Shown here in pieces: positions 1 to 18,002 of a stretch of DNA of 64,000 nt. The position numbers were made by a program, and so were the translations under genes. The notes beneath the pieces are model-generated. The model searched no databases, was not told where the DNA came from, and worked only from the letters and a program-made list of their open reading frames with translations. Origin of the DNA: Linderina pennispora (taxonomy: Eukaryota > Kickxellomycota > Kickxellomycetes > Kickxellales > Kickxellaceae); NCBI RefSeq assembly GCF_002104995.1, contig NW_024468276.1, positions 16,672 to 80,671 on the forward strand, in the 5' to 3' direction. How positions within the stretch are numbered: position 1 is the first letter of the stretch; each line of letters opens with the position of its first letter.

Positions 1-26
1 TTGGTTATTCTGATAATAGATATTTA

Positions 27-61
27 GTTTCTTTAAACTTTTATATTTGTGAATGGCCTCC
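27..61 (+). repeat. Right end of a B-type terminal repeat
   Basis: This stretch begins GTTTCTTTAAAC and ends GTGAATGGCCTCC. It is a near-copy of 682-716 and 11992-12026 and is the inverse of 13272-13306. The GGCCATTC edge parallels the GGGGTCATTC edge of the A-type repeats, so it is read as the end of a related repeat family. Here it directly abuts the Tc1-derived unit starting at 62. Confidence 0.7.
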
Positions 62-619
62 AGTAGGAGAGTGCAAAGATTATATCTGAAGAAGTCATTA
101 TCACATAAATGGCAATTTGGGCTACAAGTTGGCTAGATATGTATACTGTTTCTACTGTATGATGATCAGTGTAGTCCCCTAGATACGATGCACTACTCAC
201 ATATAGGGCTTCATTATGAGTATGATCAGATAAAGGCTAAAATTTATCGTTTTTGGCACCTACGTTGCGTTGGCCTAGGAAATTATAAATAGGTAAATAA
301 ATGAAACCGTTTGTTTATGGCTAGTGAACTCGATGCCTGTGCGTATCGCTGCGGTCAAAAAAACCTATGGTGGCTATACTAGTTATTGAGAAAAAAATCG
401 ACGAATTTTGTGAGCAAAAATGAGTCTAAAATTTTTAATTTTAAATACTCCATTTCTCAAATATTTCAAGAGCAATAAGCATGCACCTGCATGAAATAGA
501 TTAGTGCATGGCATCCACCATGAATTCATTTTATCATATTCAATGAACGTCGTTCTGAGAAATTATTTAATATTGTCGATGGTTTTTATTTTTGTGACTC
601 AATTTTGCTGCCCAGTGTA
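62..619 (+). mobile_element. Tc1-derived non-autonomous unit X, copy 1
   Basis: A unit of about 560 bp recurs at 16357-16914 in the same orientation and at 14295-15325 in reverse, where an A-type repeat splits it. Its 3' half (about 300-619) matches the end of the Tc1 transposase gene at 10732-11751 plus that element's right inverted end (GACTCAATTTTGC...CAGTGTA). Its 5' half (62-300) is not coding and not recognised. The left Tc1 end is missing, so it was mobilised by other means or is a truncated copy. It holds no open gene. Confidence 0.6.
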
Positions 620-681
620 TTTATCAACTGCTAGTAATTGATTTATTATTTGCTAATTGGTTAATATAACAAGAGCAATTT

Positions 682-716
682 GTTTCTTTAAACTTTTTTA
701 TTTGTGAAAGGCCTCT
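682..716 (+). repeat. Right end of a B-type terminal repeat
   Basis: This is a second near-copy of the 27-61 end with a few substitutions (GTGAAAGGCCTCT). Upstream sequence at about 640-680 also resembles, in inverse, the sequence after 13306 (a shared caaattataaatcaatt-like stretch). The family's inverted ends are therefore probably longer than 35 bp. It is followed at once by a Tc1 transposase fragment. Confidence 0.6.
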
Positions 717-724
717 AATAGGTT

Positions 725-910
725 AGAAATTGAAGATCTCAACACCCTCTGGGAGCAGGTCCAGGACATCTGGTGTGAGCACATAAATGAAACTATTTGC
801 TCACAGCTGGTGAACTCGATACCTGCGCATATCGCACTAATCAAAAATGCCCATAGTGGCCATACTAGAAATTGAGTATTAAGTCTTCTAATTTTTATTC
901 ACAAAATTGT
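725..910 (+). pseudogene. Tc1/mariner transposase, 3' fragment
   Basis: Positions 731-890 are nearly the same DNA as 11610-11751, the last part of the Tc1 transposase gene, from the EDLNTLWEQ coding stretch to the stop. There is no catalytic residue and no start, so it is a dead remnant. It lies between a B-type end (682-716) and the A-type repeat starting at 933. Confidence 0.75.
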
Positions 911-932
911 GTCAACAAATTAAATTAATAAT

Positions 933-1393
933 GGGGGTCATTCCTGGACTTGTAAATTTTAGTTATTTGCAATTTTGTTAGATAGATATTTGAATAATCG
1001 TTTTCAGAACTATTTTTTGCTACTAATTATTTTTTCTATAGTTATTATTTGTTATTGTGTCCAGAATGTTTTTGTGTGTATAATTGATTTTAAAAATACA
1101 AATATTTTTTTTGCCATTTCACCCAAACCGCCATCGGCATCTTGGAAAAGTTTCAGTGAACATAATTTCCTTGTGGTTGCTTAGCCACATCTATTGAGAT
1201 ATTGACTTTTGTTGCCCAATGATAATTAACCCCAAATATGCAAAGTTTTTCTTTCTGGTTGAAATTATGTTCACTGAAACTTTTCCAAGATGCCGATGGC
1301 GGTTTGGGTGAAATTTTTATTTCACTGAAATTGCTAATAGTTCCAGCATGCATAAATAGTTAATGGGCAGATAAGTGTCTCTGTATAACCCCC
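933..1393 (+). repeat. A-type terminal repeat, copy 1 (loop inverted)
   Basis: The 461-bp repeat begins GGGGGTCATTCCTGG and ends TATAACCCCC. It contains a 53-bp inverted repeat (about 1116-1168 and 1261-1313, containing ACCGCCATCGGCATC and its complement) around a loop of about 92 nt. The loop is the reverse complement of the loop in copies 2, 3 and 5. It appears identical to copy 4 (8754-9214), the other end of the same element. No gene lies in it. Confidence 0.92.
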
Positions 1394-1443
1394 TTATTGA
1401 AGATATTTCTATCATTAAGTAAAGTTTGTAAAAAATTCCTATT

Positions 1444-2397
1444 TTAAAAGTTGCTTATGACATGTCTAACATAGAAGTTCATTGACTCATCAATTTTAGC
1501 TTGAATCAGTCTATCTTGTAGTTCTCTCATTGAAGCTTCTAGTTCTACTTTTTGTGGTAAAGTACTTCCAACTTCAGCATGAGTTGATCTCTCCTGGTTG
1601 TTGCTTGGGTAGTCAAAGTTAGATAGAACCCAAAGTGTGTGGTGATGTTCAATAGGAACTTTACTAGCTGCTAGGATCTTCTTCATATTGTAGAGTAAGC
1701 AACAGAGTTTAAACTGCACATTGTACACAGTTGTGTTTCTAATTCTTACAACTTCTCTATTTGATAGTCTCTTAAATGTGTTACCTAGTTCTCCAAATGT
1801 GCTCTCAACCATTGATCTAAATGACCCAAGTTTGCTATTATATTCTAACTCTGCCTCACTTAAGTTGGTTCCTCTTGGCTTTCTAACTGGTAAGCAAAAG
1901 TTATGCATTCCAAAATTCTCAATCTCTTCTGCTTCTGTTAACTCCTCCAGAATACTTTGAGGATAACCACCATCTAAAACAACACAATCTACTGGAGAGA
2001 TGTATTTCAATAGTGACATGTTCTTAATCATCTTAGAATCTGGGTAGTCTTTACACTCCTCAGTTGGTGAAACAAGGACAACCATTCCATTCAAATCAAT
2101 GCAAACTTGTGTTCTATATCCTGACTTCTTCAACTTGAAGGAATAAAGATTTGGTTTGTATGCACCATTATGTAGTGCTCGTGAGTCATGTCCATCTAAC
2201 ATAAGAGTAATATGCTTAAACCCTTGTGGATTCTGAATCTTTGCTGAGATCACTCTTAGTTCTGGAGTAGAGAACATTGTGTGTAAGTAGTGTGAAAGCT
2301 TCTTGTTCAACTCACTTAACTCTGAGAGATAGAACATATTATGAATTACCTGATAGCTGCTCTTAGGAATAAACCTCTCCATCTCATTGGGGGTCAT
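1444..2397 (-). pseudogene. DDE transposase of outer element, 3' part cut by insertion
   Basis: This is the C-terminal 315 or so codons of the outer transposase gene. The inner element entered after the ATT at 2386-2388, removing the N-terminal helix-turn-helix region, which survives at 6529-6828. All three catalytic positions remain: D in LMLDGHD, D in VVLDGGYP and E in SMVESTFGEL. The inserted repeat supplies an in-frame ATG (2395-2397), giving a new 317-residue frame that starts M-T-P before rejoining the transposase. A 1-bp difference near the 3' end (extra A in the CTAACATAG stretch) changes the last residues compared with the inner copy. Whether the truncated protein is made is unknown; it could act as a repressor or be dead. 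Confidence 0.85.
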
Positions 2398-2850
2398 TCC
2401 TGGACTTGTAAATTTTAGTAAATTACAATTTTGTTAGATAGTTATTTGAATAATCGTTTTCAGAACTATTTTTTGCTACTAGATATTTTTGTAACAGATA
2501 TTTATAATTGTTGTGTCCAGAATGTTTTTGTGTGTATAATTGATTTTAAAAATACAAATATTTTTTTTGCCATTTCACCCAAACCGCCATCGGCATCTTG
2601 GAAAAGTTTCAGTGAACATAATTTCAACCAGAAAGAAAAACCTTTGCATATTTGGGGTTAATTATCATTGGGCAACAAAAGTCAATATCTCAATAGATGT
2701 GGCTAAGCAACCACAAGGAAATTATGTTCACTGAAACTTTTCCAAGATGCCGATGGCGGTTTGGGTGAAATTTTTATTTCACTGAAATTGCCAATAGTTT
2801 AAACATGTATAAATAGTTGTTATGCAGATAACTAGCTCTGAATGACCTCC
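2389..2850 (+). repeat. A-type terminal repeat, copy 2 (left end of inner element)
   Basis: This 462-bp repeat has the 53-bp inverted stem near 2572-2624 and 2719-2771, with a loop of about 92-94 nt in the opposite orientation to copies 1 and 4. It ends GAATGACCTCC, as do copies 3 and 5. Its first bases also supply the ATG used by the truncated transposase frame to its left. Confidence 0.92.
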
Positions 2851-2911
2851 TTATTGAAGCATTTTCTATCAATGCAAATTTCTTACTGAGAATTCCTATT
2901 TTAAAAGTTAC

Positions 2912-4141
2912 TTATGACATGTCTACATAGAAGTTCATTGACTCATCAATTTTAGCTTGAATCAGTCTATCTTGTAGTTCTCTCATTGAAGCTTCTAACT
3001 CTACTTTTTGTGGTAAAGTACTTCCAACTTCAGCATGTGTTGATCTCTCCTGGTTGTTGCTAGGGTAGTCAAAGTTAGATAGAACCCAAAGTGTGTGGTG
3101 ATGTTCAACAGGAACTTTACTAGCTGCTAGGATCTTCTTCATATTGTAGAGTAAGCAACAGAGTTTAAACTGCACATTGTATACAGTTGTGTTTCTAATT
3201 CTCACAACTTCTCTATTTGATAGTCTCTTAAATGTGTTACCTAGTTCTCCAAATGTGCTCTCAACCATTGATCTAAATGACCCAAGTTTGCTATTATATT
3301 CTAACTCTGCTTCACTTAAGTTGGTTCCTCTTGGCTTTCTAACTGGTAAGCAAAAGTTATGCATTCCAAAATTCTCATTCTCTTCTGCTTCTGTTAACTC
3401 TTCCAGAATACTTTGAGGATAACCACCATCTAAAACAACACAATCTACTGGAGAGATGTATTTCAATAGTGACATATTCTTAATCATCTTAGAGTCTGGG
3501 TGGTCTTTACATTCCTCAGTTGGTGAAACAAGGACAACCATTCCATTCAAATCAATGCAAACTTGTGTTCTATATCCTGACTTCTTCAACTTGAAGGAAT
3601 AAAGATTTGGTTTGTATGCACCATTATGTAGAGCTCGTGAGTCATGTCCATCTAACATAAGAGTTATATGCTTAAAGTTTGTTGGATTCTGAATCTTTGC
3701 TGAGATCACTCTTAGTTCTGGAGTGGAGAACATTGTGTGCAAGTAGTGTGAAAGCTTCTTGTTCAACTCACTTAACTCTGAGATATAGAACATATTATGA
3801 ATTACTTGGTAGCTGCTCTTAGGAATAAACCTCTCCATCTCATTGATTGATAGCCCAGCAACTAACTGGTACAAAATCAAGAGTCCTTTCTCAACATTTC
3901 TGTAAGGACATGGATACTGCTTTCCACCAAATAGAACATTTAAGAAGAAGAACACAGGGATCATTCCAAGTTGCTTTACAAGTGTATCTTTGATGAGCTT
4001 TATTTCTTTCACTTCATGAGCTTCACTCCTATAGTACTTCTGTTGTTTATGTACTAACCAGTCTTCATCAAGAAATCTCCACTTTGTTGTGTAGAGCACA
4101 TTCCACTCCTTCTCTCTTAATTCTTGTAATTGATTGTCCAT
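2912..4141 (-). CDS. DDE transposase, PIF/Harbinger or IS5-like (DDE_Tnp_4 type)
   Basis: This is the intact transposase of the inner element, expected to cut and join the element's ends. The frame opens upstream at a TTG (4183), but the first ATG is at 4141, giving 409 residues. In that numbering a helix-turn-helix-like stretch lies near residues 88-117 (LILYQLVAGLSINEMERF and following). The acidic triad is D164 (LMLDGHD), D238 (VVLDGGYP) and E294 (SMVESTFGEL), with the FG.L...F.RL motif typical of DDE_Tnp_4 proteins after the glutamate. Family assignment rests on this motif pattern; a 3-bp target duplication agrees. It diverges from the 79-residue gene, so the 51 bp between them probably hold both promoters. 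Codons are AT-rich, unlike the host genes after 18 kb. Confidence 0.88.
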   Translation of the reverse strand: MDNQLQELREKEWNVLYTTKWRFLDEDWLVHKQQKYYRSEAHEVKEIKLIKDTLVKQLGMIPVFFFLNVLFGGKQYPCPYRNVEKGLLILYQLVAGLSINEMERFIPKSSYQVIHNMFYISELSELNKKLSHYLHTMFSTPELRVISAKIQNPTNFKHITLMLDGHDSRALHNGAYKPNLYSFKLKKSGYRTQVCIDLNGMVVLVSPTEECKDHPDSKMIKNMSLLKYISPVDCVVLDGGYPQSILEELTEAEENENFGMHNFCLPVRKPRGTNLSEAELEYNSKLGSFRSMVESTFGELGNTFKRLSNREVVRIRNTTVYNVQFKLCCLLYNMKKILAASKVPVEHHHTLWVLSNFDYPSNNQERSTHAEVGSTLPQKVELEASMRELQDRLIQAKIDESMNFYVDMS

Positions 4142-4192
4142 CTGTGTGAGGTAGTCATAAATAAAAATTTCAACTTTTATCAATTTTAGAAA

Positions 4193-4432
4193 ATGGGATC
4201 ATTCCAGAACTTCTTCAAGCAACATTTAGCTGAGATGTGTGAGGAAGAAAGAGATATGCTTACTCTGCTACTTATTCATGACTTTGATATGAGTGATGAC
4301 TTAGCAATACAAGTGCGTAATTGGATCCAACATATTGCTACTGATTGTGAGGTAAGGGTTGAACATGTGTATGATGTTTGTCATACTTTCCATAGAGATA
4401 TGGAGAGAATGGTTGCTTATACTATGTTTTAA
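4193..4432 (+). CDS. 79-residue acidic helical protein of the A-type element
   Basis: The small gene is intact in both element copies, with a single residue difference (H or Q near residue 64). The protein starts MGSFQNFFKQHLAEM, is rich in D and E, has no membrane segment or cysteine motif and looks wholly helical. The family is not recognised. It sits between the divergent transposase gene and the convergent 544-residue gene, ending 8 bp from the latter's stop. Conservation and tight packing suggest it is translated and helps transposition or regulation; that role is inferred. The ATG at 4193 is clear. Confidence 0.7.
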   Translation: MGSFQNFFKQHLAEMCEEERDMLTLLLIHDFDMSDDLAIQVRNWIQHIATDCEVRVEHVYDVCHTFHRDMERMVAYTMF

Positions 4433-4440
4433 AATGGCTG

Positions 4441-6075
4441 CTATTCAACTGTGATTGTTCTATATCCCACACTTATAACTCTTAGATATATTTGTTGCTT
4501 TCTTTCTCCTAACTGTTGAGAAATTGCTTTTCCAATAGAACTGTCAACTGGTGTCCTAATAAGAGTTGGCTGTTTATCTCTCCCTTTAATAAGAATATCA
4601 ACATAGAAGTATGAATGTCCTCTAAAAGTATGGAGTGCATAATGTGTAGCTGTAAATTCATCACCTAACTGAAGAACATTGTAAGCAACTCTATACAATG
4701 AAGGTTTCAGATCTGTATTCTCTTTGATAAATATATGGCTAGTTTCATCAAGTGTGATATTGTCTATTGCTGTTGTTAATGCATTGATGTTTTCCTCTTT
4801 TGCAGAATATTTATCCTCTGACATTTTTGATAGACATATCTTACTCTTTGCTTGCTTACTATCTATCCAACCAATATGCATTCCTTTATAGTTAACTAAT
4901 CCCATCTCTTCAAAAGTGTGATACTGCTTAGTTGTAGGATAAGTTGACCAGAAGGAGTTTCTCTGACTTGGAACAATAGTTATATTCTCATCAACTCTTC
5001 TAAGAACTTTTTCTGTTTCAAGACCACTCTCAAGTGAATCATATATTTGATAAAGTGTAGGTCTGTTGTTGAATGAGAGATTAGCAACAACTACCATTGG
5101 ATCATCATTCTTGTTTAGTTTCTTAATAATTCCTTGCTTCTTTGATGTGATAGAGTTAAACCAATGACAATATGCTAGAGTATGCTGTTGTCTCACATAA
5201 ATGCAAACTGTATAACAACTACTAACTTTATCAACAAGTGCTTTCCACTGCTTTTCATAAGAAGTTGCAAATGTTCTGCATTCATTCATAAACTGAACTG
5301 TGTTAAGAAGCAAGTTACTATTCCATTCAACTGTTTGCATCTGAGAAGAATGTACAGTTAGTTCTATCCTAGTCAAACCAGAGTTTCTGCAAGCATACAA
5401 TGTTTCTCCAAAGTTGTGCAAAGTTGGCATTACAAATTCAGAAAGTTTGGAACTAAGAGGATTACGAACTTCACCACTCTCAAGAAGCTGAATAAACTTG
5501 TTATAAATTTTGTTCTTAACTTTAACATCTCCTTTCTTTGTAAACCAGCTAATACAGTTAGAGCCAGACTTGTGTAAATCATCTACAACATCTTTCTTTT
5601 CAACTCCTCTTTCTAAAAGGTATTTATAGATAATATTTCTAGATGAGATATTCATACAATCCATTGTGATGTCATAATTCTGTAGAAATATTTTGTGATC
5701 AGCCATAGTAGCAAACTTCACTGTTAACAAAGAACTAGTTATTGCAATGTTTGGGGTAGATACTTTGTAAATAGCAACTGGTCCATATTGCTCACTAATC
5801 TTGCTTCTAACATACTTATAACCAAAACCTTCTCCAAATACTTTATGCAATCTAACACTAGCTGACTTCTGCTTCACCTTTATATCTGATTCACTGCATT
5901 TCTCAACAACAACCTCAACAATGAATGAGTCAACAAATATTTCAGAAGAGTGCTTAAATCCAAGTTGCTCTACACCTCTAGCAGTATACCTAGCATCAGC
6001 AACATCAGGCATATTTCTTCTTTCTGACAACACTCTTGTTAGTAATGCTCTTAGTTCACTTTGGAAGGGGGTCAT
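4441..6075 (-). CDS. 544-residue unknown protein of the A-type element
   Basis: This is the largest gene of the element. The start codon lies inside the right terminal repeat (CAT at 6073-6075, bases 7-9 of the repeat), so the first residues M-T-P are encoded by the repeat. I do not recognise the family. Visible traits: an N-terminal PDVADARY segment (about 23-30), a central basic stretch with ISWFTKKGDVKVKNKIYNK (about 175-193), an RIELTV strand near 236-241, an IVPSQRNSFW motif, a YHTFEEMGLVNY motif, and a C-terminal beta-rich part with HTFRGHSYFYVD. The K...YNK then RxE order is loosely like rolling-circle replication initiators, but no HUH or clear tyrosine motif was seen, so this is a weak guess. 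Four copies of the family occur in this window, two of them decayed. Confidence 0.8.
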   Translation of the reverse strand: MTPFQSELRALLTRVLSERRNMPDVADARYTARGVEQLGFKHSSEIFVDSFIVEVVVEKCSESDIKVKQKSASVRLHKVFGEGFGYKYVRSKISEQYGPVAIYKVSTPNIAITSSLLTVKFATMADHKIFLQNYDITMDCMNISSRNIIYKYLLERGVEKKDVVDDLHKSGSNCISWFTKKGDVKVKNKIYNKFIQLLESGEVRNPLSSKLSEFVMPTLHNFGETLYACRNSGLTRIELTVHSSQMQTVEWNSNLLLNTVQFMNECRTFATSYEKQWKALVDKVSSCYTVCIYVRQQHTLAYCHWFNSITSKKQGIIKKLNKNDDPMVVVANLSFNNRPTLYQIYDSLESGLETEKVLRRVDENITIVPSQRNSFWSTYPTTKQYHTFEEMGLVNYKGMHIGWIDSKQAKSKICLSKMSEDKYSAKEENINALTTAIDNITLDETSHIFIKENTDLKPSLYRVAYNVLQLGDEFTATHYALHTFRGHSYFYVDILIKGRDKQPTLIRTPVDSSIGKAISQQLGERKQQIYLRVISVGYRTITVE

Positions 6076-6528
6076 TCCTGGACTTGTAAATTTTAGTAAA
6101 TTACAATTTTGTTAGATAGTTATTTGAATAATCGTTTTCAGAACTATTTTTTGCTACTAGATATTTTTGTAACAGATATTTATAATTGTTGTGTCCAGAA
6201 TGTTTTTGTGTGTATAATTGATTTTAAAAATACAAATATTTTTTTTGCCATTTCACCCAAACCGCCATCGGCATCTTGGAAAAGTTTCAGTGAACATAAT
6301 TTCAACCAGAAAGAAAAACCTTTGCATATTTGGGGTTAATTATCATTGGGCAACAAAAGTCAATATCTCAATAGATGTGGCTAAGCAACCACAAGGAAAT
6401 TATGTTCACTGAAACTTTTCCAAGATGCCGATGGCGGTTTGGGTGAAATTTTTATTTCACTGAAATTGCCAATAGTTTAAACATGTATAAATAGTTGTTA
6501 TGCAGATAACTAGCTCTGAATGACCTCC
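6067..6528 (+). repeat. A-type terminal repeat, copy 3 (right end of inner element)
   Basis: The 462-bp repeat has the same orientation and, by eye, the same sequence as copy 2, including loop direction and the GAATGACCTCC edge. It carries the start codon of the 544-residue gene. It is followed by ATT, the second half of the target duplication. Confidence 0.92.
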
Positions 6529-6828
6529 ATTGATTGATAGCCCAGCAACTAACTGGTATAAAATCAAGAGTCCTTTCTCAACATTTCTGTAAGGACATGG
6601 ATACTGCTTTCCACCAAATAGAACATTTAGGAAGAAGAACACAGGGATCATTCCAAGTTGCTTCACAAGTGTACCTTTGATGAGCTTTATTTCTTTCACT
6701 TCATGAGCTTCACTCCTATAGTACTTCTGTTGTTTATGTACTAACCAATCTTCATCAAGAAATCTCCACTTTGTTGTGTAGAGCACATTCCACTCCTTCT
6801 CTCTTAATTCTTGTAATTGATTGTCCAT
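6529..6828 (-). pseudogene. DDE transposase of outer element, 5' part cut by insertion
   Basis: This is the N-terminal 100 or so codons of the outer transposase, from the ATG at 6828 down to the insertion point at 6529-6531. It nearly equals the matching part of the inner gene (one D/G change seen near codon 52). Translation would run into the inner element's terminal repeat and stop near 6457. It holds the helix-turn-helix start but no catalytic residue. Joined to 1444-2388 it accounts for one complete gene. Confidence 0.88.
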
Positions 6829-6879
6829 CTGTGTGAGGTAGTCATAAATAAAAATTTCAACTTTTATCAATTTTAGAAA

Positions 6880-7119
6880 ATGGGATCATTCCAAAACTTC
6901 TTCAAGCAACACTTAGCTGAGATGTGTGAGGAAGAAAGAGATATGCTTACTCTGCTACTTATTCATGACTTTGATATGAGTGATGACTTAGCAATACAAG
7001 TGCGTAATTGGATCCAACATATTGCTACTGATTGTGAGGTAAGGGTTGAACATGTGTATGATGTTTGTCAAACTTTCCATAGAGATATGGAGAGAATGGT
7101 TGCATATACTATGTTTTAA
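6880..7119 (+). CDS. 79-residue protein, outer-element copy
   Basis: This second copy of the small acidic protein differs from 4193-4432 by one residue (Q for H near residue 64). It is open and sits between the broken transposase start and the 544-residue gene, ending 8 bp from the latter's stop. The function is not recognised. Confidence 0.65.
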   Translation: MGSFQNFFKQHLAEMCEEERDMLTLLLIHDFDMSDDLAIQVRNWIQHIATDCEVRVEHVYDVCQTFHRDMERMVAYTMF

Positions 7120-7127
7120 AATGGCTG

Positions 7128-8762
7128 CTACTCAACTGTGATTGTTCTATATCCCACACTTACAGCTCTTAGATATATTTGTTGCTTTGATTCTCCTAAC
7201 TGTTGAGAAATTGCTTTTCCAATAGAACTGTCAGCTGGTGTCCTAATAAGAGTTGGCTGTTTATCTCTCCCTTTAATATGAATATCAACATAGAAGTATG
7301 AATGTCCTCTGAAAGTATGGAGTGCATAATGTGTAACTATAAATTCATCATCTAACTGAAGAACATTGTAAGCAACTCTATACAGTGATGGTTTCAGATC
7401 TGTATTCTCTTTGATAAATATATGTCTAGTTTCATCAAGTGTGATATTGTCTATTGCTGTTGTTAATGCATTGATGTTTTCCTCTTTTGCAGAATAATCA
7501 ACCTCTGATATTTCTGATAAACATATCTTACTCTTTGCTTGCTTACTATCTATCCAACCAATATGCATTCCTTTGTAGTTAACTAATCCCATCTCTTCAA
7601 AAGTGTGATACTGCTTAGTTGTAGGATAAGTTGACCAGAAGGAGTTTCTCTGACTTGGAACAATAGTTATATTCTCATCAACTCTTCTAAGAACTTTTTC
7701 TGTTTCAAGACCACTCTCAAGTGAATCATATATTTGATAAAGTGTAGGTCTATTGTTGAATGAGAGATTAGCAACAACTACCATTGGATCATCATTCTTG
7801 TTTAGCTTCTTAATAATTCCTTGCTTCTTTGATGTGATAGAGTTAAACCAATGACAATATGCTAGAGTATGCTGTTGTCTCACATAAATACAAACAGTAT
7901 AACAACTACTAACTTTATCAACAAGTGCCATCCACTGCTTTTCATAAGAAGTTGCAAATGTTCTGCATTTATTCATAAACTGAACTGTGTTAAGAAGCAA
8001 GCTGCTATTCCATTCAAATGTTTGCATCTGAGAAGAATGTACAGTTAGTTCTATCCTAGTCAAACCAGAGTTTCTACAAGCATACAATGTTTCTCCAAAG
8101 TTGTGCAAAGTTGGCATTATAAATTCAGAAAGTTTTGAACTAAGAGGATTACGAACTTCACCACTCTCAAGAAGCTGAATAAACTTGTTGTAAATTTTGT
8201 TCTTAACTTTAACATCTCCTTTCTTTGTAAACCAGCTAATGCAGTTAGAGCCAGACTTGCGTAAATCATCTACAACATCTTTCTTTTCAACTCCTCTTTC
8301 TAAAAGGTATTTATAGATAATATTTCTAGATGAGATATTCATACAATCCATTGTGATGTCATAATTTTGTAGATATATTTTGTAATCAGCCATAGCAGCA
8401 AACTTCACTGTTAACAAAGAACTAGCTATTGCAATATTTGGGGTAGATACTTTGTAAATAGCAACTGGACCATATTTTTCACTAATCTTACTTCTAACAT
8501 ACTTATAACCAAAACCTTCTCCAAATACTTTATGCAATCTAACACTAGCTGACTTCTGCTTCACCTTTATATCTGATTCACTGCATTTCTCAACAACAAC
8601 CTCAACAATGAATGAGTCAACAAATATTTCAGAAGAATGCTCAAATCCAAGTTGCTCTATACCTCTAGCAGTATACCTAGCATCAGCGACATCAGGCATA
8701 TTTCTTCTTTCTGATAACACTCTTGATAGTAATGCTCTTAGTTCACTCTGGAAGGGGGTCAT
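7128..8762 (-). CDS. 544-residue unknown protein, outer-element copy
   Basis: This full-length, open second copy has about twenty substitutions and no gap against 4441-6075, so both appear to have been kept functional until recently. The ATG (8760-8762) again lies in the terminal repeat. Because the outer transposase is broken, this copy could act only with the inner element's transposase. All the segments listed for the inner copy are present. Confidence 0.8.
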   Translation of the reverse strand: MTPFQSELRALLSRVLSERRNMPDVADARYTARGIEQLGFEHSSEIFVDSFIVEVVVEKCSESDIKVKQKSASVRLHKVFGEGFGYKYVRSKISEKYGPVAIYKVSTPNIAIASSLLTVKFAAMADYKIYLQNYDITMDCMNISSRNIIYKYLLERGVEKKDVVDDLRKSGSNCISWFTKKGDVKVKNKIYNKFIQLLESGEVRNPLSSKLSEFIMPTLHNFGETLYACRNSGLTRIELTVHSSQMQTFEWNSSLLLNTVQFMNKCRTFATSYEKQWMALVDKVSSCYTVCIYVRQQHTLAYCHWFNSITSKKQGIIKKLNKNDDPMVVVANLSFNNRPTLYQIYDSLESGLETEKVLRRVDENITIVPSQRNSFWSTYPTTKQYHTFEEMGLVNYKGMHIGWIDSKQAKSKICLSEISEVDYSAKEENINALTTAIDNITLDETRHIFIKENTDLKPSLYRVAYNVLQLDDEFIVTHYALHTFRGHSYFYVDIHIKGRDKQPTLIRTPADSSIGKAISQQLGESKQQIYLRAVSVGYRTITVE

Positions 8763-9214
8763 TCCTGGACTTGTAAATTTTAGTTATTTGCAATTTTGTT
8801 AGATAGATATTTGAATAATCGTTTTCAGAACTATTTTTTGCTACTAATTATTTTTTCTATAGTTATTATTTGTTATTGTGTCCAGAATGTTTTTGTGTGT
8901 ATAATTGATTTTAAAAATACAAATATTTTTTTTGCCATTTCACCCAAACCGCCATCGGCATCTTGGAAAAGTTTCAGTGAACATAATTTCCTTGTGGTTG
9001 CTTAGCCACATCTATTGAGATATTGACTTTTGTTGCCCAATGATAATTAACCCCAAATATGCAAAGTTTTTCTTTCTGGTTGAAATTATGTTCACTGAAA
9101 CTTTTCCAAGATGCCGATGGCGGTTTGGGTGAAATTTTTATTTCACTGAAATTGCTAATAGTTCCAGCATGCATAAATAGTTAATGGGCAGATAAGTGTC
9201 TCTGTATAACCCCC
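8754..9214 (+). repeat. A-type terminal repeat, copy 4 (loop inverted)
   Basis: This right end of the outer element is 461 bp and by eye identical to copy 1, including the inverted loop and the GTATAACCCCC edge. It is followed by AAT (9215-9217), matching AAT at 930-932. Confidence 0.92.
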
Positions 9215-9217
9215 AAT

Positions 9218-9721
9218 GATCAATATTCATATGTGTTTATGAGTGATAAGCATGCAATTATATGAAATACTATAATGCATAGAATATACTATGATTTAAT
9301 ATTGGAGTTCAGGAAGTATGTATTTTTCTAACTCATTTATTCTATTCAGTGTGTTACTTATTGCTAAGGATGATGTCCTTTCGTCATGAGTATAGTATTA
9401 CTGCTCTCTGATAATATGCCTTAAGTAGTAGATATCTAGGTATAAATTGTACTTTCCGCCTGCATTTAAAGTGATATTGGAAGAAGTTAATTATATAGCT
9501 TAGTTTCAGATCTCAGTTTATTAATGCTCCTTCACCATAAAATCTATACCATATAATACTAAAATTTTATCTTCTATCTGCCCCAAAGGAATTGATACTA
9601 CTATAAATCATAAGTGCTCATTTACACTAGTCCTAATAATAATAATGGTATCTCAAATGCAAGTAGTACACTATTGCGAATTATATTAAGTGCTATGAAT
9701 GGTATTTGGAGAAGGAGCCTT
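9218..9721. other. AT-rich gap, nothing recognised
   Basis: About 500 bp of AT-rich sequence holds no convincing frame, repeat match or RNA gene. It may be decayed transposon DNA. Confidence 0.5.
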
Positions 9722-10195
9722 TCAAAAGGGAGTAACTATATCAATTGTTACTTCAACATTACGTCTTTTATGCAGTCCTCTAGTAGTTAAAGGGTGCTGT
9801 ATTGTCAGTATTTCTGCATCATGATTCAAAGACACTGTAGATGATACTAGTACTATCTCAGATGATTCCTTTGTTAGTAGATCTGGCCCAGGATATGATA
9901 CTGGTGTTTCTCCTAAAGGTGATGGTATGCAGCTTGATGGGAAAAATTCATCATCAGTTGTATCACATATCCCTAGGTGTGTCAAAGTCTTAGAAAGTGT
10001 AGATAGCATTACTACATTAGAATGTGGTATTTGTCTCCAGAAGGGGATCTCTAGGGAAAATGGGAATCTAAGCGATGGGAGGAAATAGCTCTGACTATCT
10101 TTATTACCACTATTAACTACTATGATACCTAGGCCTAGTGGCCTATATAGAGATATAGCACAAAAGAAATATAGAGTAAAAAGTAATACATTCAT
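9722..10195 (-). CDS. Hypothetical 157-residue protein, possible secretory start
   Basis: The frame opens with an ATG and a hydrophobic start (MNVLLFTLYFFCAISLY) that could be a signal peptide, then a polar body with no cysteine pattern. No family is recognised. It stands alone between the outer element and the Tc1 copy, in AT-rich DNA. A chance frame or a decayed effector-like gene is as likely as a working one. Confidence 0.3.
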   Translation of the reverse strand: MNVLLFTLYFFCAISLYRPLGLGIIVVNSGNKDSQSYFLPSLRFPFSLEIPFWRQIPHSNVVMLSTLSKTLTHLGICDTTDDEFFPSSCIPSPLGETPVSYPGPDLLTKESSEIVLVSSTVSLNHDAEILTIQHPLTTRGLHKRRNVEVTIDIVTPF

Positions 10196-10396
10196 TTTAT
10201 ATGATATGTCTAATAGTATAATATGGTATGTTTCCTACAGCTGGATATTTTATATATAATTCCAAAAATTATTTAAATACAAATATGAGATATGAATACT
10301 ACTGATATTTCATTATACAGATGTAAATGCATATATTAAAATGTTTAATATGGACCAAACATAAATAAAATAAGACAGTAATAGGAAATTGCAATA

Positions 10397-11980
10397 TACA
10401 CTGCGTGGCAAAATTAAGTCATACAAATTTTTCTTCAAAAAATGTCCGATTGTGGAAAAAGCAGTAATACCATACCCTTAATAGCAGGGAATGCATATCA
10501 CTTGCTTGCAATGATGAGTATTGTTTATGACCAATGTTCCTAGAATGTCGCACTCACTAGAAATTACTATCTTTTGAAATAGCAGTAATTTTTAGTGGTG
10601 CTTATTTTTGTCCTTTCCTACTTTCAATGACTAGTTTTATGCCCAAAACATTTATGGAAAAATTCAAAATTTTTGCCATCAATACAACAGCATTCTTTCT
10701 TCCACATCCATATCTCATCCCCTATCTAACTATGCCTAAAAAATTACAGTCATCAAAAATAAATCACATCCAATATCTTCTAACACAACAATTATCAACT
10801 CGGCAAATTGTATTGGACACAGGAGTCTCCCAATCCACAGTATCACACATTGCCCGAGCACAACATAGCGTAGAGAGGAACTTCCATGCTGGTCATAGTC
10901 GGCTGCTATCACTACATGATGAGACATACATTTGTCGACTTGCTACTACTAGTGCATGTTCCGCAGCAACGCAGATCCGACAACAGCTGGCACAATACTC
11001 TGGTATGCACATCTCAGTGTACACTATCAGACGCGCACTACGTCGCCAAGGGATTTGATCTATGCGCAGAATAAATGTCCCTCAACTGAAAGATTGCCAT
11101 CATAAGGATCGATGCCAATTTGCTATGGCCTTTGGGAGCTGGACAGACACCAATTGGAGTCAGGTAATTTGGTCAGATGAGACAAGAATACACCTCAATG
11201 GAGCAGATGGATGTGAAAGGTGCTTACGTAAACCAGGTGGAGTCCTCCAGGATCACCACATTACCCCAACCCAAAAATATGGTGGAGGTGGGATCATGGT
11301 TTGGGGATACATAACTTTGCGTGGCCTTGGCCAACTCTGCTGGTTTGAGGGGGGAATTGACACAGTGGTCTATGTGGGTGTCCTGCAGGAGGAACTACTG
11401 CAAACAATTGAGATGTATGGGCTGGATAAGGATGACATCATCTTCCAATAGGACAATGCTTCATGCCATATGGCTTCTAGGACAAGGAAGTGGTTTGCTG
11501 AGAACTCCATTTCAGTGCTACCATGGCCAGTGCAATCCCCTGATCTCAACCCCATTGAGCATTTATAGGACTTCATTTAGAGTGAGATCTGCAATGGGCC
11601 AGAAATTGAAGATCTCAACACCCTCTGGGAGCAGGTCCAGGACATCTGGTGTGAGCATGTAAATGAAACCATTTACTCACAGCTGGTGAACTCGATGCCT
11701 GCGCGTATCGCAGCCATCAAAAAAGCCCCCGGTGGCCATACCAGATATTGAGTAATAAATCGTTGAATTTTTGTGAACAAAATAGAGTCAAAATTTTTTA
11801 TTTGTAAATATCAATTATTCAATGAATAGATGAGCAATACGCATGAAACTACATGTGTTAGAGTTACGCACTGCGTAGATTGTGAATTAATTATAACATG
11901 AGTGGTACATGCTGATCATAGAAATTATTCTAGTTTTTCAACTTTTTTAGTTATGTGACTCAATTTTGCCACTCAGTGTA
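10397..11980 (+). mobile_element. Tc1/mariner element, full length but inactive
   Basis: Inverted ends TACACTGCGTGGCAAAATT (from 10397) and the matching AATTTTGCCACTCAGTGTA (to 11980) are bounded by TA. Between them is one Tc1-type transposase gene with four in-frame stops. Fragments of the same family lie at 62-619, 725-910, 14295-15325 and 16357-16914. Its right edge is 11 bp from a B-type end at 11992, so it may have inserted into a B-type repeat. Confidence 0.88.
10732..11751 (+). pseudogene. Tc1-type transposase (DDE) with four in-frame stops
   Basis: A single reading frame runs from the ATG at 10732 (or 10627) to 11751. It has an N-terminal helix-turn-helix (LSTRQIVLDTGVSQSTVSHI) and the triad in WSDETRIHL, the DNASCH stretch and SPDLNPIEHL, all typical of Tc1. 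Stops fall at 11056 (TGA), 11449, 11566 and 11578 (TAG). No frame shift was needed to read through. At each stop the expected residue (R, Q, W, W) differs by one C-to-T or G-to-A change. It is therefore a pseudogene killed by transitions. Confidence 0.88.
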
Positions 11981-11991
11981 CAAGATGTTAT

Positions 11992-13306
11992 GTTTCTTTA
12001 AATTTTCTTATTTGTGAATGGCCTCCAATATGATCATCTATTCCAAATGCATCAGTATTATCACTAGCACTTGAGAGAGTTGATAGACAAACTTTCTCTC
12101 TTGCTTGTTGAACAGTTAGCCAATCAATATGCATTCCATGATAGTTAACAAGTCCCATTTCAGCATATGTGTGCTGTTGCCTTTGTCTTGAAGCAACAGG
12201 CCAGAAGGAATTTCTCTGACTAGGAACAATAGTGATGTTTGTGATATCTCTTCTCAGAACAACTTCAGATTCAAATGGACCACTACTAGTAGCATATGTA
12301 TGAAGAATAGTTAGGTGTCCATTGAATGTAAGATTAGAAACAACAGTCATCATATCCTCATTCTCTTTCAACTTTTTAGCTATTCCTTGTTTCTTCTTAG
12401 TTGTCTGATTGAACCAATGGCAGTAAGCAAGAGCATGTTCTTTATGAAAGTAAATGCGTAATGTATGTTTGTTATGAATCTGATCAACTAGTGCCATCCA
12501 CTGCTTTTCATAAGATATTGCAAATATCCTACAGTTACTAAGAAACTCAAGTGTATTGACAATTAGGTTTATGGTCCATTCTACTTCTTTCAACTCAGGA
12601 GTGTGAACAGTAAGCTCAAGTCTCATTAATCCTTCATTCCTACAAGCAACAAGTGTTTCACCAAACTGTTGAGAAGTTGGCATCACTAGCTCTGATAGCT
12701 TAGAAGTAAGTTGATTGCGAACTTCACCACTTTCTAAGAGTTGAACAAATTTATTATACAACTTGTTCCTAATTCATATTTCATCTTCATCATCAAGAAT
12801 ATCATTGCTACTGATTCCATTATCAAGAAGAAACTCCTTGATAACAGCCCTAGAAGATATGTTTAGACAATCTTTTGGAATATCATAGTTCAGAAGTAAT
12901 ACATGTTCTTGATGCATCCTAAGAAAGATATCAGTTAGTGTAGGATCAGCTATTGCAACATTTAGAGCAGATACCTTGTAAACAGAGACTTTACCATTTC
13001 TCACACTTGTCATGCATCTGATGTACTTAAATCTGTATCCATCACCAAAAACTCTATGCAATCTATCAAATGGAGTAGTATTATGAATTTGATCCATTAG
13101 AATGCATGACTCAGGAATCTCAACAACACATGAATCCATAAAGATATCAAATTGCTGAACAAATCCTTGTTGTTCAATGCCATTACTAGTATATCTTGCA
13201 TCAGATATATCTGGCATATTATCTCTATTCTTCAACTCAAGTCCCAGAAGGGAGTTAAGATGTACTCTCAAGGAGGCCATTCACAAATAAGAAAGTTTAA
13301 AGAAAC
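11992..13306 (-). mobile_element. B-type element remnant with 35-bp inverted ends
   Basis: The ends 11992-12026 and 13272-13306 are near-perfect inverse copies (GTTTCTTTAAA...GGCCTCC and GGAGGCCATTC...AAAGAAAC). The interior is a decayed homologue of the 544-residue gene, starting from an ATG inside the right end. Sequence after 13306 (to about 13400) also resembles the stem of the A-type repeat (GATGCCAATAGTGG beside GATGCCGATGGCGG), so A and B types share ancestry. No transposase or 79-residue gene is present, so this is a deleted relative. Confidence 0.7.
12027..13280 (-). pseudogene. B-type homologue of the 544-residue protein, decayed
   Basis: The translation matches the 544-residue protein from its start (NMPDISDARYTSNGIEQQGF) to about residue 430 (YAEMGLVNYHGMHIDW). 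It has an in-frame TGA at 12774-12776, a small deletion around the basic ISWFTKKG stretch, and a 3' cut where the B-type end takes over. Divergence is large at the protein level but motifs are kept (SYEKQWMALVD, AYCHWFN, NITIVPSQRNSFW). These shared blocks are the most informative for later profile searches. As in the A type, the ATG lies within the repeat end. Confidence 0.8.
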
Positions 13307-13456
13307 CTAATTTCATATATTAGAATACCCAATTGACAAATTATAAATCAATTGAAATTTTTCAGGATGCCAATAGTGGTTTCATAGTAGTACAAAAAAA
13401 ATAAAAGAATAAAAATATTTAAAAGTTTTAATTATCAAATACCTAGTTTAGTAATT
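13307..13456. repeat. Probable continuation of a B-type terminal repeat
   Basis: AT-rich sequence follows the B-type left end. Positions about 13340-13365 match, in inverse, the 630-680 stretch, and about 13358-13388 resembles the conserved stem of the A-type repeats. The far edge of the repeat could not be set. Confidence 0.4.
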
Positions 13457-13943
13457 GTGAATACCGTCCTTTATTAAATTTACAATTCGCCTATGAATAG
13501 GGTTGAAATAAAAAAAGTTCTTAGAAGAGCTAATAAGATGATATCTATTGCTCAAAGTAGAGATATTACTTCTAGCCTATATATCCTATATAAGTAATAC
13601 CATACTTTTGAAGAGGAATGATTATTGAACTATAATAGAATAATTAGTATATAGATAGAAAACAAACAAGTAAAGAGTAATATATTTAATGGAAATAATA
13701 TATGTATAGTTTTCTATAGTAGACTAAATGATCAATTTACTAATAACAGCAATTAAAGGTATCATTCTATATCAAACAGCGGTAGTATTTATAGAAGAGA
13801 ATACAGATCTTATGCCTTTAATATATAGAGTTGCTTACAATATTCTTCATATAGGTATTGAATTAATAGTTATACAATATGTACTCCATATATTCAGAGG
13901 ACATTCATACTGTTGTGTCGGTCGACTATGTAGGGGGTATTAA
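13457..13943 (+). pseudogene. Third homologue of the 544-residue protein, C-terminal part
   Basis: Translations in two frames match residues of about 345-525 of the 544-residue protein. They include EIKKVLRRANK with SISIAQS-like sequence, then YHTFEE and a LLNYN segment, then AIKGI with VVFIEENTDLMPLIYRVAYNILHIG and HIFRGHSY. Several stops and at least one frame shift are present, and base use is very AT-rich. It lies on the opposite strand to the B-type copy and overlaps it in protein content, so it is an independent dead copy. Confidence 0.7.
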
Positions 13944-14030
13944 ATGCATATTTAATATTGAAGAAAAGAGAGACAAGTAAACACACGAGTTGCACAGGGG
14001 AGTTTTTAATACTACCATCTGTGCTACTTA

Positions 14031-14147
14031 TCAGAGGCTAGACTCTACCTCTATATCGTAGGCTGTAGCGGGGCTCTCGTTGGCACCTGGATTTCTGTCA
14101 CCTGATTCGGCTGACATGTCGATGTCAGGGACAGCCGCATCAGGCAT
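14031..14147 (-). other. GC-richer 38-codon frame, possible gene fragment
   Basis: Within AT-rich DNA a GC-richer patch encodes a frame from an ATG at 14147 to a TGA at 14031. The peptide is acidic and rich in S, A, P and N (starts MPDAAVPDIDMSAES). No family is recognised. It may be the 3' end of a lost host gene or of another transposon's polyprotein. Confidence 0.3.
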
Positions 14148-14294
14148 GCAACAATACTTCTATATAGATAATCATATTATTAGGAGAGAATAGCAACTAA
14201 CTCTTATTCAAATAAGTGCTGATATTTATATTTGAAACACAATTACTCTATAGAATGGATTGACAAATAATTATATTTATCTAAGAGTTGAAAG

Positions 14295-15325
14295 TAAACT
14301 GGGCAGCAAAAATTGAGTCACAAAAATATAAATCATCGAAAATCTTAAATAATTGCTCAGAACATTGTTCATTGAATACGATAAAATTAATTCGTGGTGT
14401 ATGCTATGCACTATTCTATTTCATGATGTTGTATGGTTATTGCTCTTGAAATAAATGAGAAATTACAATTTTAAAAATTAAAAATTTTTGACTCAATTTT
14501 GCTCTCAAAAATTCGTCGATTTATTTCTCAACATCTAGTATAGACACCATAGGCTTTTATGACTGCAGTGATACACCCAGGCATCGAGTTCACTAGCTAT
14601 ATACAAACAGTTTCATTTATTTACCTATTTATAATTCCTAGGCCAATGCCATGTAGGTGCCAAAAACGATGACTTCTGGTCTTTATCAGATCATACTCAT
14701 AATGAAGCCCTATATGTGAGTAGAGCATGTATCTAGAGGATGCCACTGCTCATCATCCAATAGAAACAATATACATATCTAGCTAACTTATGGGGGTCAT
14801 TCTTGGACTTGTAAATTATAGTAAATTCCAATTTTGTTAGTTAGATATTTGATTAATCGTTCTCAGAGCAGATTTTTACTACTAGTTATTTTTATCATAG
14901 TTAATATTACTTATTATGTCCAGAATGTTTTCGTGTGTATATTTGATTTTAAAAATACAAATATTTTTTGCCATTTCACCCAAACCGCCATCGGCATCTT
15001 GGAAATGTTTCAGTGAACATAATTTCAACCAGAAAAAAAAGCTTTGCATATTTGGGGTTAATTATCATTGGGCAACAAAAGTCCATATCTCAATAGATGT
15101 GGCTAAGCAACCACAAGGAAATTATGTTCACTGAAACTTTTCCAAGATGCCGATGGCAGTTTGGGTAAAATTTTTATTTCACTGAAATTGCCAATAGTTT
15201 GAACATGTACAAATAATTGTTGTGCAGATAACTAACTCTGAATGACCTCCTGTAGCCCAAATTGCCATTTATATGATAATGACTTCTTTAGACATAATCT
15301 TTGCACCCTCCTACTGGTTATCATA
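14295..15325 (-). mobile_element. Tc1-derived unit X, copy 2, split by an A-type repeat
   Basis: In reverse orientation this matches unit X (62-619): Tc1 right end near 14295-14320, then the X-specific part up to 14788. It continues at 15254-15325 after the solo A-type repeat. The unit is not coding. It provides a clean empty-site comparison for the insertion, since copies 1 and 3 lack it. Confidence 0.65.
14792..15250 (+). repeat. Solo A-type terminal repeat, copy 5
   Basis: This 459-bp repeat has the same edges as copies 2 and 3 (GGGGGTCATTC and GAATGACCTCC) and the same loop direction, but no transposon genes beside it. It is flanked by TAT (14789-14791) and TGT (15251-15253); unit X elsewhere reads TGT at this point. 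It is therefore a 3-bp duplication with one later change. It could be a solo repeat left by recombination or a repeat that moved alone. Confidence 0.85.
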
Positions 15326-15331
15326 GGTATG

Positions 15332-17923
15332 TACACTGAGCGGCAAAATTGAGTCACAAAAAATTTTTTCAACTTTTTGATACTATATCTTCATCATCAG
15401 ATAATATAGATACTTCCATTCGATATATGTTCGATAGGGCTTGACATAGTATAAAAGTATTTAGTTACATGTTCTCTAACTATTGTACCTCGCATGGTAT
15501 CGAAGCAATAGTAAAAAAGTAGAAAAATTCATGAGTCAAAAATTTGACTCACTTTGACTTCGTAGTGCTATTTCTATACCATATCAATATTCGAATAATG
15601 TGAAATCACTACCCATAACTCTGCTGCACTCGCTCTTCAATAATAATATCTCATTCACAACGTTGCTCAACTACGCATGGTATTATCATGTAATCAATAT
15701 GTGAAGAAAAATCATGAAGGAAATGATCAACGCTTCAGCGCTGCCTTCACTTTTATAGATGTTGATTGCATAGTTGATATTCGCGTGATTAGTACTCAAC
15801 GATGACAAGAAATGAGTTTGATAGCTAGTTCACTGAAGGAGTAATCAACTATAAATGATGTACAACTATGCTTAAGCTCTCTATTGAAGCAATATAATTT
15901 TATGACTTGATTTTTTATAGTAACAATATATAGATAGGTAGAGAGGTTACTACTGTGGCTATCTGCTCTATGCTATGAGATATCTATATGTAATCTCTGT
16001 GCCTAATGATAAGCCATTTAATCTGAATCACAAATTTTGCAACTTTCTTAATCCTTCTTTAAGCAGCTCCTTATGATCAAAAACATATTAGATCAAATCA
16101 AATGTACTTACTATACAAAGCACATGCCCCACAGGTGACTATGGGAATGAAATATCCTAATGAAAGTGCTCTATTCTGTGAACACTGGGAAGAAATCTAG
16201 ATTCTAAGAAAATCTGAAAAAGTGGATTCTGAGTTTTAAGTAATATATCTCTATAGAGCTATGGCCATTGCTTCCCTAGTAGAGGGGGATGTGACATGCT
16301 GACCAGTGTGTATGTGATGATATAAAACATACCTTGAGTAAATACCTAAGAAATGCAATAGGAGAGTGGAAAAATTACGTCTAATGAAGTTATCATCACA
16401 TAAATGGCAATTTAGGCCACAAGTTGGCTAGATATGTGTACTGTTTCTACTGGATGATGATCAGTGGCATCACCTAGTTACGATGCGCTACTCACTTATA
16501 GGGCTTCACCATGAGTATGATCTGATAAAGGCCAGAAATCATCGTTTTTAGCACCAATGTTTTGTTGGTCTAGGAAATTGTACATAGGCAAGTAAACGAA
16601 ACTGCTAGTTCATGGCTAGTGAACTCGATGCCTGTGCGTATCGCTGCAGTCAAAAGAACCTATGGTGGCTCTGCTAGTTAGTGAGAAAAAAATTGACGAA
16701 TTTTGTGAGCAAAATTGAGTCTAAAATTTTTATTTTTAAAATGTCAGTTTCTCGCTTATTTCAAGAGTGATAAGCACACAACTACATGAAATAGATTAGT
16801 GCATGGCATACACCATGATATAATTTTATCATATTCATTGAACATCGTTCAGAGAAATTATCTAAGATTTTCGTTGATTTTTATTTTTGTGACTCACTTT
16901 TGCTGCTCAGTGTATTCAAGGTATGCTTTATATCATCATATACACACTGGTCAGTGTGTCACCTCCCCCTCTACTAAGGAAGCAATAGCCATAGCTGTAT
17001 AGAGATACACTACTCTAAACTAAGAATATACTTTTTCTGATTTTCTATGATTCTAGATTTCTTCCTAATATTCACAGAATAGAGTATATTTATCAAGATA
17101 TTTTATCCCCACTGCTACCTGTGGGGCATGTGCTTTGTATAGTAAGTATATCTTATTTGATCTATTGAGTATTTGATCAGAAGGAGCTGCTTAAAGAGGG
17201 ATTACGAAAATTGCAAAATATATGATTCATACTAAATTGCTTATCATTAGCCACAGAGGTTACATATAGATATCTCATAGTATAGAGCAGATAGCCACAG
17301 TAGTAATCTCTCTACTTATCAATATACTGATACTATAAAAAAAATCACATCATAGATTTATATTGCTTGAAAGGTGAGCTGATATGTAGTTGTACATCAT
17401 TTATAGTTGATAATTCCTTCAGTGAACTAGCTATCAAACTCATTTCTCTTCAGCATTGAATACTAGTCATGTGAGTATCAACTATATATTCATCATCCAT
17501 AAGAGTGATGGCAGCGCTAAAGCATTGATCATTTCCTTCATAATTTTTCTTCGCATATTGATTACATGATAGTACCATGCGTAGTTGAGCAACGTTGTGG
17601 ACGAGATATTATTATTGAAGAGCGAGTGCAACAGAGTTATGGGTAGTGATTTCACATTATTCGAAAAAAGATAAGGTGTATAAATGGCAGTATGAAGTCT
17701 AAGTGAGTCAAATTTTTGCCTCTCCAATTTTTCTACTTTTTTACGATTGCTTCGATATCATGCGAGGTACAACAGTTAGAGAACATGTAACTACATACTT
17801 TTATACTATGTCAAGCCCTATCACACATATATCGAATGGAAGTATCTATGTTGTCTGATGGCAATGATAGAGCATCAAAAAGTTGAAAAAATTTTTTGTG
17901 ACTCAATTTTGCCGCTCAGTGTA
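15332..17923. repeat. Large inverted repeat with 1-kb arms and Tc1-like ends
   Basis: Arms 15332-16336 and 16917-17923 are imperfect inverse copies about 1 kb long. The outer edges read TACACTGAGCGGCAAAATTG and its complement, a Tc1-like terminus bounded by TA. The arms hold no gene. The 580-bp spacer is occupied by Tc1-derived unit X (copy 3). It could be a foldback-type element or two head-to-head copies of a non-autonomous element. Confidence 0.75.
16357..16914 (+). mobile_element. Tc1-derived unit X, copy 3
   Basis: This matches 62-619 along its whole length with scattered substitutions and ends in a Tc1 right terminus (CTGCTCAGTGTA). It lies as the spacer of the 15332-17923 palindrome. 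It has no coding capacity. Confidence 0.65.
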
Positions 17924-18002
17924 ACATTTCTACACGAGTGCATAGTTCGTGATACGGCGTTGATAGCTTTGAATTTATAAAAACAACTAAAGTGTTTACA
18001 AT

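Follow-up and report, generated by a model that had tools for sequence, protein, structure and literature searches.

The fungus Linderina pennispora carries, in a 64,000-nucleotide stretch of its 26-Mb assembly (C144:16672-80671; hereafter the window), two DNA transposons nested one inside the other, in each of which an interior (INT) lies between two long terminal repeats (R) of the same orientation. The outer element spans 933-9214 and the inner one 2389-6528, and all four R, of about 462 bp, lie in the + orientation (Table 1). The repeat coordinates bear out the initial annotation, which had described two nested elements of about 4.14 kb with repeats of about 460 bp in one orientation; the 3-bp duplications AAT and ATT that it placed at the outer edges are there as well. 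The inner element is inserted within the transposase gene of the outer one, and the insertion point is unbroken in other genomic copies (best match 100% over 117 bp).

The three reported gene products, a DDE_Tnp_4-like transposase and proteins of 79 and 544 residues, are also upheld by the open reading frames (ORFs). The 409-aa transposase matches DDE_Tnp_4 (PF13359) with E 9.3e-14 and 51.8 bits, the cut-off being 24.8. Its catalytic triad, assigned by eye, is likely D164, D238 and E294; D164 and D238 are invariant among the aligned transposases and E294 is nearly so. Matching transposases occur in Coemansia, Mortierella and Rhizomucor. Many relatives of the transposase in Mortierella-type fungi and metagenomes (P0023, P0026, P0032 and others) bear a chromodomain in precomputed Pfam annotation; the Linderina transposase has no chromodomain match in a Pfam search.

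Table 1. Features of the nested elements and of related sequences in the window
Feature	Position	Strand	Basis or remark
Target duplication AAT, outer element, left	930..932		same letters at 9215-9217
Left R, outer element, core orientation 2	933..1393	+	repeat comparison
Invertible core of outer left R	1170..1260	+	arms 1116-1169 and 1261-1314
Outer INT, 3' part of transposase, broken by inner element	1394..2388	-	ORFs
Target duplication ATT, inner element, left	2386..2388		empty site known
Left R, inner element, 462 bp, core orientation 1	2389..2850	+	repeat comparison
Core of inner left R	2626..2717	+	arms 2572-2625 and 2718-2771
409-aa DDE_Tnp_4 transposase, inner element	2912..4141	-	ORF and Pfam
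79-aa protein, inner element	4193..4432	+	same length in families B2 and B1
544-aa protein, probably Rep_trans-like, inner element; ATG within right R	4441..6075	-	ORF, motifs
Right R, inner element	6067..6528	+	repeat comparison
Arm-core-arm of inner right R (54-92-54)	6250..6449	+	arm 6250-6303, core 6304-6395, arm 6396-6449
Target duplication ATT, inner element, right	6529..6531		matches 2386-2388
Remaining outer INT: transposase 5' part, 79-aa ORF 6880-7119 (+), 544-aa ORF 7128-8762 (-)	6529..8753	-	ORFs
Right R, outer element, core orientation 2	8754..9214	+	identical to left R, 461/461
Target duplication AAT, outer element, right	9215..9217		matches 930-932
Decayed family-B relative of 544-aa gene	11988..13280	-	protein comparison
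Solo R, family A, 91.8%, flanks TAT/TGT, without exact duplication	14792..15250	+	repeat comparison

Three families of elements with direct terminal repeats

The genome holds three families of this R-INT-R build: A (R of 462 bp), B1 (396 bp) and B2 (397 bp). The gene order is common to them, transposase (-), 79-aa protein (+) and 544/547-aa protein (-), with the long ORF broken in one copy (L026). Compared with A, the B families have about 76% protein identity in the transposase and about 51% in the 544-aa protein, and the small protein stays at 79 aa in B2 and B1 (36/79 and 35/79 identical). A script counts 77 full-length R copies across the three families in the retrieved loci, a total that holds one R twice (L032:6015 = L033:6).

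Pairing was carried out among the matches listed, 40 R copies of A, 37 of B2 and 26 of B1, with partial rows, cross-family rows and one 85% row left out of the B2 and B1 input. Spacings typical of an element (A 3673-3691, B2 3850-3857 and B1 4840-4901, ranges set after the data were seen) are shown by 9 pairs in A, 7 in B2 and 3 in B1, and all 19 are direct. The other R pairs within 6 kb among these matches, 13 on opposite strands and 3 on the same strand, have irregular, non-element spacings. The flanks were compared in 17 paired elements, a subset of those in the genome, and 14 have an exact 3-bp target duplication (binomial probability 3e-21, 33% G+C assumed); the repeats and duplications are therefore not due to chance, and chance repeats were rejected as an explanation. 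The duplications seen include AAT, ATT, ATA, TCA, ATC, TAT, CGT, TAA, CAT and ACT. The three elements without an exact duplication, among them the 17th of the sample (C147, spanning L043/L044), have flanks ATA/AGG (abutting another element), ACT/ATT and AAT/TAT. Empty sites, a comparison named in the initial annotation, are present uninterrupted in other copies for 6 of the 14 elements with a duplication (one match has two gaps). The reading of these elements as DNA transposons with long direct ends thus holds in independent copies.

R also occurs alone and in series. An exact target duplication flanks 11 of 18 solo R, and for 7 of these 11 an empty site is found (one match spans 74 bp only). 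At C133, three R lie 3678 apart in a tandem array with shared R, the third cut off at the contig end; at C1, two R are followed by an INT running to the contig end. That both arrays stop at contig ends and that many copies are 100% identical would be expected if repeats had been collapsed, and core orientation set arbitrarily, in the assembly. We regard such an artefact as very unlikely, since the flanks differ from element to element, with target duplications that match and empty sites found independently, the contigs reach 3.3 Mb, and both orientations of the R core are present in all three families (single-copy orientation as assembled).

Direct terminal repeats, solo repeats and tandem arrays also resemble long terminal repeat (LTR) retrotransposons, and the cargo might be an LTR element or have been captured by one. 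This explanation is contradicted by the gene content, and its probability is close to nil: no reverse transcriptase or gag was found among the INT ORFs by ORF and Pfam search, and a DDE_Tnp_4 transposase is encoded instead. LTR retrotransposons have TG...CA ends as a hallmark, whereas the two ends of R are GGGGG...CCTCC, with inverted ends.

Two copies have a more complex form. In one B1 copy, of about 5.3 kb, the start of the transposase gene and the 79-aa gene are partly repeated in reverse orientation within the left end (L035:1855-2826). At L032:2805-3659 a B1 element and an A element lie tail to tail by their right ends, 1 base apart, perhaps by later rearrangement.

The terminal repeat, its paired copies and its two-way core

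Each R resembles a miniature inverted-repeat transposable element (MITE) of 396-462 bp with its own inverted ends of about 11 bp (about GGRGGYCATTC). In family A these ends are GGGGGTCATTC and GAATGACCTCC, 11 bp each, which pair at all positions but one; the R of B1 and B2 begin with GGAGGCCATTCA. The initial annotation had considered that two short elements might co-mobilise the genes between them. The MITE-like ends of R, together with the solo copies that carry their own target duplication, agree with one part of this idea; the other part, that two independent MITE insertions happened to flank and move the genes, is contradicted by the near-identical R pairs and their fixed spacing. Indeed, left and right R differ at 0-2 positions within each of the 17 elements, and R of different subfamilies differ at 4-33 positions. 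One element (C13_762) has 1 difference within and 31 to the nearest other R; the outer element of the window and its sister C1_2110 have 0 and 2 within and 31-33 to other subfamilies; C1_2994 has 1 within and 4 to the nearest other R, and B2_C35 has 1 and 7. The commonest A subfamily, in which all R are identical, and the sister pairs B2_C1/B2_C178 and B2_C2/C147 are uninformative here. Each element has one R in two nearly identical copies, not two independent elements. As the spacing is also constant, the orientation direct, the inner junctions fixed and the build the same in three families of diverged proteins, an independent composite is highly improbable.

Inside R, two inverted arms enclose a core, with arm-core-arm lengths of 54-92-54 in A, 45-46-45 in B1 and 61-46-61 in B2. 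The core occurs in both orientations in all three families (27/22 in A, with one R counted twice; 15/6 in B2; 6/1 in B1; as assembled). In the window, the outer and inner R are 81.3% identical, and 93.1% identical once the 91/92-bp core is turned; the core is inverted and the flanks have diverged. In another element (C112:394), left and right R agree over 462 bp apart from an oppositely turned core. The core orientation tends to be common to both R of an element, as it is discordant in only 4 of the 17 (P 0.02 vs one half).

Between three A subfamilies, arms plus core vary at 0-1 of 200 positions, and their flanks diverge by 9-19%. B1 and B2 show less of this difference when compared with each other, with 2% in the core, 7% and 17% in the arms and 16% and 40% in the flanks, and B2 copies compared among themselves show none (8.7% in the core, 6.6% and 4.7% in the flanks). 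The two arms match without mismatch in 34 of 49 A copies, and the A unit as single-stranded DNA has a folding z of -15, as expected from its arms. The likeness of the arms between A and B is significant (0/2000 shuffles as good). That between core A and core B (TATCTCARTAGA) is not, with 292/2000 shuffles as good, so no relationship between the cores is claimed. The initial annotation had dealt neither with R's own ends and solo copies, nor with this two-way core between arms, nor with the protein likeness described next.

The 544-aa protein and its likeness to Rep_trans

The 544-aa gene is tied to R by its start codon: the right R opens with the bases of the ATG (reverse complement of GGGGGTCAT), and this arrangement is found in two A copies, one B1 copy and one B2 copy. 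Database proteins of Linderina pennispora match the family. Judged from motifs and a predicted fold, the protein is probably a tyrosine nickase of a Rep_trans-like kind. Residue conservation was scored over 19 full members (P0008, partial, was dropped; P0020, 847 aa and weak, was not aligned). The acidic residues D49, D135 and E238 are identical in 19/19 and are placed against the RepDE metal ligands D46, D142 and E214, an equivalence based on motif and strand order without superposed coordinates. Motif III, Y-x-K-x-x-E/Q, is present as Y191, K193 and Q196 in 19/19 members, and RepSTK1 shares its Q. Of motif IV, W/L-x-R-x-E, R236 and E238 are present in 19/19, with L in first place in the window protein and Y/M/F/W in most others. 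Motif II, T/S-x-Y/E-x-G, is seen only as S176, positions 178 and 180 varying among the 19, and no conserved R stands two places ahead of D135 as in motif I. The domain may have a TBP-like fold, to judge from prediction, and in the VIA list of the domain model 4cij is the sole Rep_trans row among 50.

Searches at greater distance returned little. PF02486 (Rep_trans) matches none of 20 family members at E up to 1, and nothing in the genome. Foldseek against viral models gives nothing below 1e-3 and mostly unrelated top rows; an Inoviridae protein named GST REP ranks 7 and an uncultured-virus Rep ranks 24, both above 1e-3. Relatives of the family were sought without success in viral and prokaryotic contigs and in PHROGs, NCBIfam and PDB sequences; tblastn of the relative P0005 against plasmids gave no match, and that of P0006 against phages gave three weak ones (portal protein, helicase twice). 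Orf430 of phage Pf1 has no Pfam match, and a Cf1c piece was rejected as Rep_trans by eye for its H-x-H pattern. A protein database search with the 79-aa protein led nowhere, and by Pfam neither it nor the 544-aa protein has a Myb match, nor any INT protein a His-Me finger nuclease match.

Rep_trans initiators appear restricted to bacteria, with distant archaeal relatives, according to a 2026 account (PMC13107129). Should the assignment prove right, eukaryotic transposons are a further home of a family of enzymes hitherto regarded as bacterial. The likeness to Rep_trans initiators (pT181-type RepD, RepSTK1) and MOBT relaxases lies in a possible TBP-like sheet and in the D/D/E set, the Y-x-K-x-x-E/Q motif and the R-x-E motif, which follow one another as they do there; the R hairpin may be likened to the stem-loops described in their cognate DNA (PMC4797284, PMC6499999). 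The differences are the missing PF02486 match and motif II, a long extra C-terminal region, the eukaryotic host and the coupling to a DDE transposase.

Known systems and a proposed route of transposition

PIF/Harbinger elements have a TWA-type target preference and a Myb-like second protein. The Linderina elements share with them the DDE_Tnp_4 transposase, the 3-bp target duplication and short inverted ends, but they have long direct terminal repeats, a Rep_trans-like partner and targets not restricted to TWA; without a Myb match in either accessory protein, they are not canonical PIF/Harbinger elements. The closest build is that of KolobokP, described from animals, in which an INT lies between direct repeats of about 450 or 660 bp with short inverted ends of their own, solo repeats and tandem arrays sharing repeats occur, and a DDE transposase is accompanied by a nuclease gene (Kojima and Bao 2022, PMC9587614). 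The Linderina elements likewise combine repeat-INT-repeat, own inverted ends, solos and multimers. They differ in host, in their 3-bp duplication, in their two-way core (the KolobokP main text does not use the words inversion, invertible or hairpin; PMC9587614) and in their genes, DDE_Tnp_4 and a Rep_trans-like protein instead of a Kolobok transposase and a His-Me finger nuclease. That DDE_Tnp_4 is the best Pfam family of the Linderina transposase speaks against the Kolobok superfamily, on Pfam only and with no Kolobok transposases compared. No other DNA transposon with long direct repeats was found in the open-access literature, and Cryptons are described without them (PMC3212892). The initial annotation spoke of a new class or subfamily. 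For the architecture, a class of its own claims too much, as KolobokP already has it with its solos and arrays; the elements are a variant in what is probably another transposase superfamily. What differs from KolobokP is the transposase family, the host kingdom, the second gene and the core in two orientations. The direct-repeat, composite-like build, in the literature searched described only for Kolobok in animals, is now known from a fungus as well, in DDE transposons of another kind and with a different second gene.

How does an element keep two identical direct ends? We propose the following, which we consider about an even chance for this lineage: circles would be released by the nickase and re-integrated by the transposase with duplication of R. 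First, the 544-aa nickase would cut the hairpin within one R, and rolling-circle synthesis would proceed to the next R, freeing a circle of one R and one INT. Second, the transposase would join the ends of the circle's R to a target cut with a stagger, after which R, repaired or replicated, would stand on both sides of the INT in direct orientation, much as in a cointegrate. On this view every R-INT-R would be an integrated, terminally redundant circle, and recombination at the arms would flip the core as a by-product. A single scheme of this kind would explain why the two R are identical and direct and why arrays and solos arise; its nick-and-replicate step, turning one R into two, is the best mechanism at hand and unproven. 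A one-repeat circle giving an insert with two direct repeats is described for IS26 pseudo-compound transposons and translocatable units (PMC9587614); IS26 encodes its transposase within the repeat, whereas in Linderina the genes belong to the INT, R contributing no more than a start codon. A wider form, in which a eukaryotic Rep_trans-fold initiator works with a DDE transposase, the direct repeats are paired origins, one-R circles are re-inserted with R duplication and core flips are the trace of origin-hairpin nicking, is possible, though we place it somewhat short of even. If true, it would join plasmid-type replication to DDE integration and give the first Rep_trans relatives in eukaryotes in the open-access literature. 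The elements would be categorically new only if a replication role is demonstrated.

Plain cut-and-paste with gene conversion stays a serious rival. Here, elements would move by their outer ends as in KolobokP, R would be kept identical by homologous recombination or gene conversion that also yields solos and arrays, and the 544-aa protein would not start replication but help by binding or breaking DNA. KolobokP has this architecture and these by-products, and its authors suggest transposition together with induced unequal crossing-over (PMC9587614); the predicted TBP-like fold would fit a helper, and recombination between the 45-61-bp arms could explain core inversion. The invariant Tyr-Lys-Gln and D/D/E at Rep_trans positions, however, are more than DNA binding alone requires, and the two R of an element are almost identical even in subfamilies more than 30 positions apart. 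We leave this alternative a considerable minority probability. If the Rep_trans assignment holds, the question of how two identical direct ends are kept becomes testable through one nickase, one hairpin and one circle.

Beyond the elements, Rfam and tRNA scans of the window led nowhere. At 10627-11451 (+) lies a Tc1/mariner-like transposase remnant, split by a stop and likely decayed; its first part has an HTH_32 match below the cut-off, and its second part is DDE-like by eye, with no Pfam match. G+C shifts sharply from about 32-38% in the transposon-rich part (1-18000) to about 50-65% in the gene-rich part (18000-64000), where one ORF (58562-60115, -) has both an SNF5 domain and a GATA zinc finger.

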